Shown one piece after another: positions 5,235 through 43,619 of a stretch of 43,661 nt of DNA; within the stretch, counting starts at the first letter, position 1, and the number at the start of each line of letters is the position of its first letter. Below the pieces are notes generated by a model. The model made no database searches. It worked only from the letters and a program-made list of their open reading frames with translations, and was not told the origin of the DNA. The position numbers and the translations under genes are program-made. The stretch covers positions 1-43,661 of the forward strand of contig CAINWP010000298.1 in the NCBI GenBank assembly GCA_903854475.1. Reading direction: 5' to 3'. The DNA is from an uncultured Verrucomicrobiota bacterium (GTDB lineage: Bacteria > Verrucomicrobiota > Verrucomicrobiia > Limisphaerales > UBA9464).

Positions 5235-7919
5235 TTATGCCTGAGCATCAGAGCCGCCGCTGGCGGACTCGCTGGCAGCAGGTGCGTCACCCGAGGAGGC
5301 CTTTTCCCGCTCTTCCATAGCAGCCTTGCGGCTGAGGCGGACGCGGCCCTTTTCATCCTGACCGAGGAGTTTCACCCAAATCTCGTCGCCGAGCTGGACG
5401 ATGTCTTCGACCTGCTTGACGCGGAAGTTGGCGAGCTCGCTGACGTGCACCAGACCTTCGCGGCCCGGGAGGAACTCCACAAAGGCTCCGAAGTCTTTGA
5501 TGGTCACAACCTTGGCCCGGTAGATCTTTCCGATTTCTAGGGGTTCGCCGGAACCTTCGCCGTCGCCACCGGCCGGGGCGTCGCTACGACGGCCACCGCG
5601 ATCTCCGCCGCGAGCACCACGGTCTGCGACACGGCCACCGCGATCACCACCGCGATCTCCGCCACGAGCACCACGGTCTCCACCACGGTCTCCGCCACGA
5701 TCGGCTCCGCGCTCAGGGCCGCGCTCGGGGCGTTCAGCACGCTCCGGACGGGCTTCTTCGCTCGCTGCAGGGGCTCCCTCTTCCGGGGCACCGGTGGAGG
5801 GCGGGATTTCTCCACGCTCTTCCATGGCAGCCTTGCGGCTGAGTTTCACGCGACCCTTTTCGTCGACGCCGATGCACTTCACCCAAATGTCGTCACCCAT
5901 CTTGATGACGTCTTCAACGCGGGCGACGCGCTTGTTGGACAGCTCGCTGACGTGCACCAGGCCGTCTTGACCCGGGAACACTTCGACGAAGGCGCCGAAC
6001 TCCTTGATGGTCACGACACGGCCTTTGTAGACCTTACCGATTTCGATCTCGGCGCTGAGCGCTTCGATTTCGCGGCGGGCGATTTCCATGCCCTCCGGGG
6101 ACACGGAGAACACCTTCACGGTTCCGTCGTCCTCGATGTTGATTTCGCAACCGGACTCTTCGACCAGGCGCTTGATGTTCTTGCCGCCAGGTCCGATCAG
6201 CGCGCCGATCTTCTCGGGGTTGATCTTCAGGGTGACGATGCGCGGGGCGTACTTGGAGATATCCGAGCGCGGAGCCGGCAGCGTGGTGAGCATGTGGGCC
6301 AGGATCAGGCCACGGGCGATACGAGCCTTCTCGATGGTCTGCTCCATGATCGGCAGCGGAATGCCCTTGAGCTTCAGATCCAGCTGGAAGCCGGTGATGC
6401 CCTTCTCGGTTCCGGCGATCTTGCAGTCCATGTCGCAGAACGCGTCTTCCCAGCCGATGATGTCGGTGAGGAGCTTGTAGCGGGAGATCTCGTGATTTGC
6501 GCCGTACTCGGTGCAAATACCGATGGAAATACCAGCCACCGGGCGGGTGATGGGCACGCCGGCATCCATGAGGGCCAGAGTCGCACCGCAGACTGACGCC
6601 ATGGAGGTGGAACCATTGGATTCCATGATCTCGGCGGTGATGCGGACGGCGTAGGGGTACTCGGTGAGGGGGATCACCGGGCGCACGCTGCGCTCGGCGA
6701 GGGCTCCGTGGCCGATTTCGCGGCGGCCGGGGCCGGTGATGCGGCCCGTCTCACCGACGGAGAAGTTCGGGAAGTTGTAGTGCAGCAGGAACTGCTTCTT
6801 GGTCTCGCCTCCGGTGTAGGAGTCGAACTGCTGGATGTCGTCGCTGGTGCCCAAGGTGGCCAAGCAGACGGCCTGGGTCTCGCCGCGGGCGAACACGGCC
6901 GAACCGTGGGCTCGGGGCAGGAAGCCCACGTCGCTGGACAGGGTGCGGATCGCGTCGAAGTCACGGCCGTCCAAACGCTTGGAGTGGTCGAGGACGAGGC
7001 TGCGGATCGCTTCCTTCTGGATGTAATACTGGGCGTCCTTGAGGACGAACTCGGTCACCTTATCGGCACCGAATTGGGCGACGAGCTTCTGACCGACTTC
7101 GGCGAAGATCGCGTTGACGGCGGCCTCGCGGGCCAGCTTCTGCTGTGTGAGGAGGGCTGGGATGATGCGATCACCGGCCAGCGTCTTGGCGGCGGTGAGG
7201 ATCTCTTCCGGAACGATGGTCACCGTGATGGCGCGCTTGGTCTTGCCGGCCTTGGCAGCCAGTTCTTCCTGAGCGGCGATCAAGGGTTGGCAGGCGGCCT
7301 GGGCGAATTTCAGGGCGGAGATGAAATCGGCCTCCGAGATTTCGTTGGCGGCACCTTCGTACATGACCACGTCGGTCTTGTTGCCGACATAGATGAGGTC
7401 GAGGTCGGACTGGGCCTGCTGTTCGTGGGTAGGGTTCACTAGGAACTCACCGGCGACGCGGGCGATGCGGACGGCGCCGAGCGGTCCATCCCAAGGAATG
7501 TCGGAAACGGTCAACGCGGCCGAAGCTCCGAGGATGGAGAGGATGTCGGCGTCATTCTGGCCGTCGGCCGAGAGCAGCAGCGACTGGACTTGGACTTCAT
7601 TGTACCAGCCCTTGGGGAAGAGCGGGCGGATGGGGCGATCGGTCAGGCGGCAGGTGAGGATCTCCTTCTCGGAGGGCCGGCCTTCACGCTTGAAGTATCC
7701 GCCGGGGAAACGGCCTGCGGCCGCCGCCTTCTCGCGGTAATCCACGGTGAGGGGGAAGAAATCCTGACCGGGCTTGGCCTTGGAGGCCGCAACGGCCGCC
7801 GTCAGGATGATGGTTTCACCGAGTTGAACGGTCACGGCGCCGTCGGCCTGCTTTGCAAAGCGGCCGGTTTCGATGGTGATGTGTTGACCACCGACGGGGA
7901 TTTGAACGGTATGGGACAT
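5235..7919 (-). CDS. pnp: Polyribonucleotide nucleotidyltransferase with two S1 domains separated by an RG-rich linker
   Basis: 894 aa. RNase PH-like domains, KH ([29 protein letters not shown]), S1, RGG/RGD-rich linker, second S1. Confidence 0.97.
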
Positions 7920-8219: not shown

Positions 8220-8477
8220 TTACTTCCGGAGCTTCAGCTTCTTGGTCAGCGCCTGGTAACGGGCCGAATCCGTGCGGTTCAGATAATCGAGCAAGCTGCG
8301 GCGTTTGCCCACCATGAGCAACATGCCACGACGGCTGCTATGATCCTTCTTGTTCTTCTGAAGATGCTCCGTCAGGGAGTTGATCTTCTCAGTGAGAAGG
8401 GCAATCTGGACATCGGCAGAGCCGGTGTCTTTTGCGTGGATGCGGTGTTCGGCGATGGTTTTGTTTTTTTCAAGCAT
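8220..8477 (-). CDS. rpsO: 30S ribosomal protein S15
   Basis: 85 aa. [50 protein letters not shown] signature. Confidence 0.97.
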
Positions 8478-8637
8478 GATTCGGTGTCGGGAAGCTCGAT
8501 GCCTCCCAGTAAGCGGTTCCGTTTATCCTGAATCGCCAAGTTAAGGGGCTGCGGTAAATGGGGCAAGCCCGGAGTTTTCTCACTATAGGCTGGTCGTTTT
8601 TTTTGGGATCAGCGGGGTGGGTTGTGGGTGGGGCTCT

Positions 8638-8750
8638 GCGGGATAGGTCCTGCGCTCGCAGGGAACGTCGGGACAGGAGGAGCTTTCGCGCTGTCGCGCG
8701 AGGGGAATCAGGATGTGGACGTTCCAATGCTCGCTCCGGACCTATCCCGC
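8638..8750. repeat. Family A structured repeat, copy 1
   Basis: 13-bp perfect terminal IR gcgggataggtcc/ggacctatcccgc, inner IR ggaacgtc/gacgttcc, apical hairpin tcgcgc-tgtc-gcgcga. Confidence 0.92.
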
Positions 8751-8834
8751 TGCCGCCAGGGGTAGGGGGTCAGTCACACCTATTTACACAAAAGGGGACA
8801 CTCTTTACTATACTAATGTTGTTGCAGTGGCTCC

Positions 8835-8947
8835 GCGGGAGCGGTCCTGTGCTCGCAGGGAACGTGGGGGCAGGAGGAGTTTTCGCGCTTTCGCGCGAGG
8901 GGGATCAGTTTGATGACGTTCCAATGCTCGCTCCGGTCCTATCCCGC
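8835..8947. repeat. Family A structured repeat, copy 2
   Basis: Closely similar to copy 1 and the same length (113 nt). The outer stem has 3 mismatched positions; the inner stems are intact. Confidence 0.92.
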
Positions 8948-9127
8948 TGCTGCCCAGGGGGGTTGTTCGGGGTGGTTGGGTGATTGAGGGAGGGATTTTA
9001 AGAAGGGAAATGGGTGATTGGGTTGTGGGTGGGGAGAATTCAAGGAGGGCAGGGCTCCGAGGCTTGCGGGAAGAGCTTCGGGCGGGAAAGGTGGGGTTGG
9101 AGGGGCGTCTGCGGAGCCGTTCACCGG

Positions 9128-10324
9128 ATGATGATCACTTACGAAGATGCTTTGGAGCGGGTTTTGAAGCCTTTAGTTGCTGTTCCAGTGGTTTCGATAT
9201 CCTTAATTGAAGCGTTGGGATGCTATTTAGCGGAGGAGGTCACTGCTTTGGTTGATTCGCCCGGCTTTGATACGGCTTCGATAGATGGCTATGCGGTGAG
9301 AGCGGGGGAGGTGTCTCGTTCTGGGGTGGTGCTGCCGTGCCTTTTGGAGGTGGCTGCGGGCCGGGTTGCCCATCGATCTCTAGAGTCCGGGGAGTGTGCT
9401 CGCATTTTGACGGGGGCCCCCATGCCAGCAGGGTCCGATGCGGTGGTGATGCAGGAGGATACGGAGCGGGAGGTCGATGGGCGGATCCGTTTCTTGGATG
9501 GGGTCAAGCCTTGGGAGAATGTTCGTTTCCGGGGGGAGGACTTCCGGATGGGTACTCGGGTGTTGGCGGCCGGGCAACGATTGGGCCCGCCGCAGTTGGC
9601 TCTTGCGGCGGCGGCAGGTCGTGGGGAGCTGCGGGTGCATCGGGAGGTGCGCGTGGTGGTGGCGAGCTCCGGGGATGAGTTGCGCTCTCCGGGCGCGACG
9701 CTGGCCCCGGGGCAAATCCACGACAGCAACTCGGTGCTGCTGACCACGTTGTTTCGTTCTGCGGGCGCGGAGGTGATTCAGGTGCCACCGCTACCGGATC
9801 AACTGGAAGCGACCATGGAGGGTCTTGAATCGGCGCTGTCGCAGGCAGATCTGGTGATCACCGCGGGCGGAGCTTCGGTGGGAGACCGGGATTTTCTGCG
9901 TCCGGCCTGGGAGCGATTGGGAGGTCAGCTCGACTTCTTTAAGGTGGCCATCAAGCCTGGAAAGCCTGTGTTTTTCGGGACACTCCGGGGTGGGCACCTC
10001 ATCGGGTTGCCAGGGAATCCCGTTTCGGCGTTTGTCACGGCGGTCCTCATGGCCTTGCCAGCTCTGCGTCGATTGCAGGGAGCGGCCGATGTCGGGTTGC
10101 CGGCCACCGTCGGTACGTTGTCGGTCCCCCTCTCGAACCCCGGTCTCCGACGGCATTTTATGCGAGTGATCTTGGAGGAATCGGGACAGGTGCGATCCGC
10201 TGGGGTTCAGGCTTCGCACATACTTCTGTCGATGGCGCGGTCCAATGGATTGGTGGATGTGCCCCCATCCACGGAGTGGCCTGTTGGGAAGCCAGTGCGG
10301 GTGCTGCGTTGGCCTGGAGTTTAA
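9128..10324 (+). CDS. moeA: Molybdopterin molybdotransferase MoeA
   Basis: MMITYEDALERVL, ASIDGYAV, ARILTGAPMPAGSDAVVMQEDT, ITAGGASVGDRDF, KPGKPVFFGTLRGGHLIGLPGNPVSAFV. Confidence 0.95.
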   Translation: MMITYEDALERVLKPLVAVPVVSISLIEALGCYLAEEVTALVDSPGFDTASIDGYAVRAGEVSRSGVVLPCLLEVAAGRVAHRSLESGECARILTGAPMPAGSDAVVMQEDTEREVDGRIRFLDGVKPWENVRFRGEDFRMGTRVLAAGQRLGPPQLALAAAAGRGELRVHREVRVVVASSGDELRSPGATLAPGQIHDSNSVLLTTLFRSAGAEVIQVPPLPDQLEATMEGLESALSQADLVITAGGASVGDRDFLRPAWERLGGQLDFFKVAIKPGKPVFFGTLRGGHLIGLPGNPVSAFVTAVLMALPALRRLQGAADVGLPATVGTLSVPLSNPGLRRHFMRVILEESGQVRSAGVQASHILLSMARSNGLVDVPPSTEWPVGKPVRVLRWPGV

Positions 10325-11274: not shown

Positions 11275-11385
11275 AGGCTTTAGCCCAGGGGACGGTCGGG
11301 TCCATCAAGCTTCAAGCGGGCCCACCGCGCTCCAGGTTCCGGCTTGAGGTCGGCCTGGAGATAGGTCCCGGAGGTAGACCTCAAA

Positions 11386-11485
11386 GGTAGGGCCGGATCT
11401 CCGAGCCGGCCGCACTGCGGGCCTGTGTAGTTCCGGCAACCCCGACCGCTCCCTCACCGCCGTTTTCGGAGGGAATCCCTCCCTC
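11386..11485 (-). repeat. Diverged Family B repeat
   Basis: aggtagggccggatctccgagccggccgc...accgccgttttcggagggaatccctccctcg parallels aggtagggaccgatctccgagcggtccg...gcggcgctttcggagaaatcgccctatctcgg at the window start. Confidence 0.7.
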
Positions 11486-29357: not shown

Positions 29358-29370
29358 GGGTAGAGCGCCT

Positions 29371-29779
29371 CCGAGGTAGGGCGATTTCTCCGAAAGCGCC
29401 ACGTCTGAAGACATGGACCATCGCAGAGATTGGACCGCCGCAGACCGGACCGCTCGGAGATCGGTCCCTACCTCGGAAGTCTTTGGACCACATCCAAGGT
29501 TCCTACCACAAGATCAGCCTCACCCGAGCGCCTCCGAGGTAGGGCGATTTCTCCGAAAGCGCCGCGTCCGCAGACATGGACCATCGCAGAGATTGGACCA
29601 TCGCAGACATGGACCGCCGCAGGGGCGGACCGCTCGGAGATCGGTCCCTACCTCGGCAGTCTTCGGACCACATCCAAGGTTCCTGCCACAAGATGAGCCT
29701 CACCCGAGGCCTCCGAGGTAGGGCGATTTCTCCGAAAGCGCCACGTTGAGCCTGACCGCCCAGAGATCGTCCCTGCTCA
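29371..29779 (+). repeat. Family B repeat array: three tandem units
   Basis: Units begin ccgaggtagggcgatttctccgaaagcgcc at 29371, 29533 and 29713. Units 1 and 2 end ggaccgctcggagatcggtccctacctcgg (29476, 29656); the unit 3 end is degenerate and abuts slyX. Confidence 0.93.
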
Positions 29780-43465: not shown

Positions 43466-43476
43466 GCGGGCGCTCC

Positions 43477-43590
43477 GCGGGACCGGGCCTTCGCTCGCAG
43501 GGAACGTTGGGACAGGAGGAGCTTTCGCGCTGGCGCGCGAGGGGGATATAGGGTGTCGACGTTCCTACGCTCGCTCCGGCCCGGTCCCGC
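43477..43590. repeat. Family A structured repeat, copy 3
   Basis: 13-bp perfect terminal IR gcgggaccgggcc/ggcccggtcccgc, inner ggaacgt/acgttcc, apical tcgcgc-tggc-gcgcga. Confidence 0.93.
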
Positions 43591-43619
43591 TCCGCTTGAC
43601 GTATTTGGTGGGGCGCTCC

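Follow-up and report, generated by a model that had tools for sequence, protein, structure and literature searches.

A new ERIC/REP-like family of nested hairpins with replication polarity and RAYT tags in Verrucomicrobiota

The movement of ERIC-sized bacterial palindromes is an old open question, and no transposase has been tied to them. The ERIC/IRU (RU-1, 127 bp) and YPAL (RU-2, 168 bp) repeats of Enterobacteria are dispersed, intergenic, form long stem-loops and have no transposase of their own (PMC2229807). REPs are 20-40 nt long, carry a GTAG-type tag and flank their own RAYT as inverted copies (PMC2817692, PMC3116915). TIRtrons/TIRYTs, in the portion of Di Nocera et al. (2013, PMC3733652) used here, are RAYT-like genes bounded by inverted repeats that share GGGGWSAS and have dispersed copies. 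Subclass 2.6 TnpA-Y1 genes have atypical secondary structures on their flanks, copies of which occur at other places in the genome, and action on the lagging-strand template is established for IS200/IS605 relatives (PMC6006769). The repeat described here, element A, is a new ERIC/REP-like family, judged against Rfam and phage, plasmid, viral and E. coli collections, with an unusual set of features: a nested hairpin with compensatory evolution, replication polarity and RAYT tags. The family is a testable case: it has polarity and compensatory changes, each candidate RAYT is present in some species and absent from others, and tagged and untagged copies lie in one genome.

The window is the whole 43,661-nt contig (C298) of an uncultured Verrucomicrobiota bacterium, and it holds three complete copies of A and the start of a fourth, cut off by the contig end (Table 1). 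A first-pass annotation of the sequence had placed all four, two of them between rpsO and moeA, and the covariance model and Pfam confirmed these placements (rpsO, 8220-8477, minus strand, Ribosomal_S15; moeA, 9128-10324, plus strand, MoeA_N/C). It had treated copies 1 and 2 as a pair; both copies are real, but motif M and an AT-rich linker had been overlooked, and the second member is an M-A unit. Copies 3 and 4 have an array period of 143 nt, and the contig end falls inside the tandem array. Most copies of A are 118-125 nt long with a consensus starting GCTCCGCGGGA, and the flanking letters differ among copies.

Table 1. Element A copies and associated motifs in the window
Feature	Position (nt)	Strand	Remarks
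G-rich leader, GGTGGGTTGTGGGTGGG type	8610..8632	+	Seen before many M-less A copies; recurs upstream of unrelated copies
Element A copy 1	8633..8755 (outer-stem limits 8638-8750)	+	Covariance model R1, 128.1 bits, E 1e-27
Copy 1 stems	Outer 8638-8650 with 8738-8750; inner GGAACGTC/GACGTTCC type; apical TCGCGC/GCGCGA	+	
Motif M, variant GGGGTCAGTCACACCTATTTACACAAAAGG	8766..8795	+	30 nt; forms the left edge of the M-A2 unit; also the RAYT-alpha leader motif
AT-rich linker of class I M-A units	8796..8829	+	M at fixed 63 nt before A, 8 copies
Element A copy 2, imperfect outer stem	8830..8952 (outer-stem limits 8835-8947)	+	Covariance model, 113.4 bits
Degenerate R motif GAGGGCAGGGCTCC	9045..9058	+	Orthologous site in G003 is GGAGGGACAGGCTCC (sequence comparison, L104 vs L108)
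Element A copy 3, perfect 13-bp outer stem	43472..43595 (outer-stem limits 43477-43590)	+	Covariance model, 115.4 bits
Element A copy 4, 3' end cut by contig end	43615..43661 (outer-stem start 43620)	+	Covariance model, 38.4 bits

The inner GGAACGT/ACGTTCC stem and the apical TCGCGC-NNNN-GCGCGA hairpin were found as annotated. The outer 13-nt inverted repeat, ascribed to each copy, is perfect in copies 1 and 3, but the arms of copy 2 mismatch at no fewer than two positions. The GCTCGC strands of the internal loop had been described as conserved without pairing, which did not hold: their GC ends pair (G-C/C-G) on either side of a tandem mismatch, across 72 copies the four pairs are intact in roughly 94-99%, and two of the four have two-sided changes. 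The predicted folds of copy 1 (MFE -66.6, z -6.0) and copy 3 (MFE -70.1, z -4.7) were each better than 200/200 dinucleotide shuffles; that of copy 2 was weaker (z -1.9, 7/200 shuffles equally good) because of its mismatched outer arms. No Y1 transposase match was obtained in the window, in agreement with the transposase absence noted earlier, and the Rfam scan of the window gave a single match, a tRNA, with no family for A above the gathering score. Two other kinds of repeat were observed in the window. A second palindromic family (GGACCGCTCGGAGATCGGTCCCTACCTCGG / CCTCCGAGGTAGGGCGATTTCTCCGAAAGCGCC) occurs at 12-107, 209-256, 11368-11415 and, in tandem, 29363-29746, and also adjoins some A copies (L020, L030, L129). 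The pnp gene (894 aa, 5235-7919) has internal repeats of 230 and 49 nt (5308-5537 with 5815-6044; 5593-5707).

A covariance model was built from 32 copies with a hand-drawn structure, because the RNAalifold consensus on the MAFFT alignment was poor and an alignment gap split the inner stem. Scanning the genome and its relatives, as the first-pass annotation had proposed, gave 75 matches in the own genome, 13 A-positive genomes among 19 genus members, with 7 to at least 72 copies each, and one copy in one other genus of the same family. This bears out a genome-wide family larger than an ordinary REP. The viral, phage and plasmid collections searched held no occurrence of A, and blastn against 5,426 E. 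coli genomes gave no match; a pattern match in Antarcticirhabdus, outside the family, was taken as chance. Public records of A-positive genomes are mostly freshwater Verrucomicrobiota MAGs. Among the A-carrying lake MAG records, CAMCYJ and CAMATE are labelled Akkermansia muciniphila in GenBank and others Verrucomicrobia bacterium; the labels look wrong. As judged with a rough gene caller, A is nearly always intergenic, in every gene configuration and with no fixed orientation to its neighbours.

Across 72 aligned copies, 91.2% of cells were paired and 19/33 pairs were changed on both sides (180 cells), in an alignment fitted to the model, which favours structure; the changes are nevertheless visible by eye. 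None of 500 shuffles reached any of the five measures, and slid controls dropped to 31-48% paired. The inner stem occurs as GGAACG/CGTTCC, GGAAGC/GCTTCC, GGATCG/CGATCC and GGAGGC/GCCTCC, and the outer arms vary by compensatory change (GCGGGACCGGGCC vs GCGGGATAGGTCC). A could be the MITE of a DDE transposon, with the outer stem serving as terminal inverted repeats read in double-stranded DNA by a transposase lost or located elsewhere. Its size of about 120 nt, intergenic position and several copies with perfect 13-bp outer arms would suit such an origin, and known bacterial MITEs of 100-200 bp form long stem-loops (PMC2229807). A TIR-binding transposase wants one sequence, however, and the arms of A are not fixed (9/13 outer pairs changed on both sides); conservation lies in the apical and internal-loop sequence, and the strand polarity of A is unexpected for DDE MITEs. 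A MITE origin is considered unlikely.

When the flanks of 20 copies were used to find the matching sites in G011 and G017, nearly all readable sites were occupied by 1 to 4 tandem copies; most of the dispersal thus predates these species. Among the about 20 orthologous sites tested in these two genomes, none was cleanly empty. Neighbouring copies lie head to tail, and tandem copy number differs between species at orthologous sites. The rpsO-moeA site has a single A in G011 and G003, the M-A2 unit of the window being extra, and a different A subtype in G002. Local duplication and subtype replacement are still under way. The occupied sites common to species, the variable arrays, the dearth of clean empty sites and the replacement in G002 would also be expected of an old immobile repeat that now spreads only when it duplicates locally or when intergenic repeats recombine ectopically, and to which motifs M and R are linked by hitchhiking. 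Such a history is distinctly improbable: unrelated sites carry M-A units whose left end is sharp, and copy numbers differ widely between species, both of which need dispersal at some time; polarity is left without explanation.

At orthologous sites, A diverged by 9.8%, the adjacent 50 nt by 8.4% and sequence further out by 4.9%. Stems changed by 5-8% and middle loops by 17-23%, so some constraint or within-family exchange is indicated. Single changes in the outer stem broke pairs in 22 cases and kept them in 9. Since in-place changes mostly break outer pairs and A diverges like its flanks, the comparison suggests that the covariation most likely arose in spreading lineages needing a foldable strand, rather than in place. 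The lower change in stems, the stable fold and the conserved apical hairpin with G-U pairs on the plus strand (CTTTCGCGC/GCGCGAGGG) might instead point to a structured RNA, such as a small RNA, an mRNA stabiliser or a terminator-like element. Against an RNA stand the pair-breaking outer-stem changes, the counts in the outer and inner stems (53 G-U cells vs 63 A-C mismatches, with no RNA-strand preference outside the apical hairpin), the variable orientation to neighbouring genes, the lack of a T-run after the stem and of an Rfam family. There is no sign of a conserved RNA, because A diverges about like the adjacent flanks and stem mismatches have no G-U preference, and an RNA function is held to be improbable.

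Replication direction was taken from GC skew in draft MAGs, with the G-rich strand as the lagging-strand template. The plus strand of the window is G-rich at the fourfold sites of plus-strand and minus-strand genes alike, a mark of replication direction. With ±1 kb masked, the A top strand lay on the G-rich strand in 59/72 clusters from three genomes (p 4e-8), and in 43/58 by a gene-direction-corrected fourfold-site measure (p 3e-4), counts that are partly non-independent since sites are common to several species. Opposite-pointing clusters made up about 18-26% in these stricter counts, the exceptions mostly having near-zero skew. A first count of 50/54 was replaced by these, as it had been inflated by the G-richness of the flanks of A themselves. 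In a hand tally, likewise partly non-independent, neighbouring clusters on one contig pointed in the same direction in 28/35 pairs. An active strand in the lagging-strand template is a feature of IS200/IS605-type polarity, and both counts place the top strand of A there; because IS200/IS605 elements use this template (PMC6006769), a single-strand route is favoured. The bias, together with long retention at the same sites in related species, could alternatively mean that A is a polar motif under selection, resembling KOPS or Chi or acting as a boundary element bound by protein, whose single orientation serves the biology of the chromosome. That A is wholly absent from six genus members, that it has diverged slightly more than its nearest flanks and that a sizeable minority of clusters is reversed all speak against such a motif, which is very unlikely.

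The own genome has 44 copies of M, 35 of them without mismatch to the pattern. In eight copies the distance from the M start to A is exactly 63 nt and the sequence left of M is unrelated, which makes M-A a unit and gives it a sharp left end. The Y1 transposase gene RAYT-alpha (PF01797, E 2.5e-10; NF047646 below its cut-off) also has M as its leader; a PDB search with its sequence gave no match. The link to a RAYT raised in the first-pass annotation stands in part: an M-A unit lies just upstream of RAYT-alpha, preceding the gene's own M', in five species (G000, G001, G005, G011, G017), but alpha is absent from four A-carrying genomes. In G018, G003 and G012, M directly precedes RAYT-alpha and A is absent there. 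M tracks alpha, being present in 9/9 alpha genomes and absent from 9/10 alpha-less ones, the tenth having 3 copies. Alpha is missing, and M missing or nearly so, in G007, G015, G016 and G010, which carry at least 72, 28, 18 and 7 copies of A, respectively. A therefore spreads without M or alpha, and RAYT-alpha with M was rejected as its general mobiliser. As to TIRYT-type repeats, alpha has M' at its 5' end and only a degenerate 3' copy, and clear inverted repeats occur in the gamma and beta RAYT clades. The GGGGTCAG form of M matches GGGGWSAS, and the commoner GGGGTCGG is off by one base. Other RAYT clades among genus members (L071, L050, L051, L066, L063, L271, L040) are bounded by clade-specific inverted leaders, AAAGGGGTCAGTTCTTGATATTG or AAAGGGGTCGGTCCTCACTATTGACACAA.

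RAYT-delta1 has a second motif, R (GGGACAGGCT), as its leader. Near A, R is on the same strand in 34/38 cases, often 31-33 nt downstream, and it also lies inside some A copies. A delta1 gene (at least 57% identity) was present in 12/13 A-positive and 0/6 A-negative genomes, as was R; delta1 was not detected in A-positive G012. Delta1 thus co-occurs with A better than alpha, but its genes are not flanked by A, and no A was found beside any of them. Because the A-positive genomes look like one clade, the co-occurrence is confounded by phylogeny, which could explain it by itself; on co-occurrence and motif, delta1 is the best candidate mobiliser of A. The delta1 genes of G000 (C22, C232, C96, C228; L400-L403) are cut at contig ends in pairs, and likewise in G007, G011, G017 and G001; such breaks in five genomes point to recent near-identical copies.

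The preferred reading, given about an even chance, is that A is an ERIC/REP-size, non-coding, non-autonomous dispersed DNA element that spread in single-stranded form by a RAYT-type transposase acting in trans and was then duplicated in tandem. A is probably a small selfish element spreading through single-stranded DNA with borrowed enzymes, and its movers are probably RAYT-type transposases in trans, named as candidate enzymes. We infer a single-strand mechanism: at the replication fork, where the lagging-strand template is single-stranded, the A top strand would form a long nested hairpin, and a Y1 (HUH) transposase of RAYT type, supplied in trans, would copy or insert it from the fork, mostly in one polarity. 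RAYT tags lie next to A on its own strand (M for alpha, R for delta1), and some copies would move as M-A units. Local tandem duplication would then build head-to-tail arrays (2 to 4 copies), and ageing copies would decay at about the neutral intergenic rate. A more speculative and rather doubtful extension is that the selfish, fork-polarised hairpin makes use of more than one RAYT, with interchangeable tags M and R letting new transposase lineages take over as older ones are lost. No complete RAYT gene bounded by A was found: A adjoins a single orthologous RAYT-alpha locus, at the 5' side only. Nor was an autonomous version with a gene-sized insert between A halves found; A itself is too short to hold a gene. 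In G018, a dense A cluster was considered as an autonomous version and rejected, as it contains an lpxD-like coding sequence (named by eye) and no transposase. Copies of A around the lpxD-like gene at this locus (L332, G018 C149) alternate with those of a different hairpin repeat, GGTGTATGCGGCGTTCCTTCAGAACGCTCCGGTTGTGCGCCATACCCGGGG. If the RAYT reading is true, ERIC-like repeats would be linked to single-strand (HUH) mobility.

Compared with known systems, A resembles REPs, BIMEs and REPINs in being an extragenic palindrome with compensatory changes, occurring in clusters, in genomes with Y1/HUH transposase genes. It differs from REPs in being 120 nt rather than 20-40 nt long and in having no conserved GTAG/GTRG foot, and no RAYT is flanked by two inverted A copies, A being 5' of RAYT-alpha only (five species) and at none of the other RAYT loci examined. 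Pairs of A are head to tail, unlike the inverted pairs of REPINs and BIMEs. A lacks the REP features that were examined and is not classed as a REP. From IS200/IS605 elements it differs in having no Y1 transposase of its own between its ends. Like the structures near subclass 2.6 TnpA-Y1 genes, A is an atypical structure that occurs by a Y1 gene and again at other sites in the genome, but it accompanies alpha at a single locus, on the 5' side. The TIRtron/TIRYT description, in the portion of PMC3733652 used here, fits the leaders of the RAYTs in these genomes and motifs M and R, with the dispersed copies of M tracking alpha; it covers M and R but not A, the 3' repeat of alpha is degenerate, and that portion of the account has no 120-nt nested hairpin joined to such a tag. 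As with ERIC/IRU and YPAL, A is intergenic, dispersed, forms a long stem-loop and has no transposase of its own; it differs from them in its compensatory stem evolution, strand polarity and RAYT tags, and in having no sequence match in E. coli genomes.
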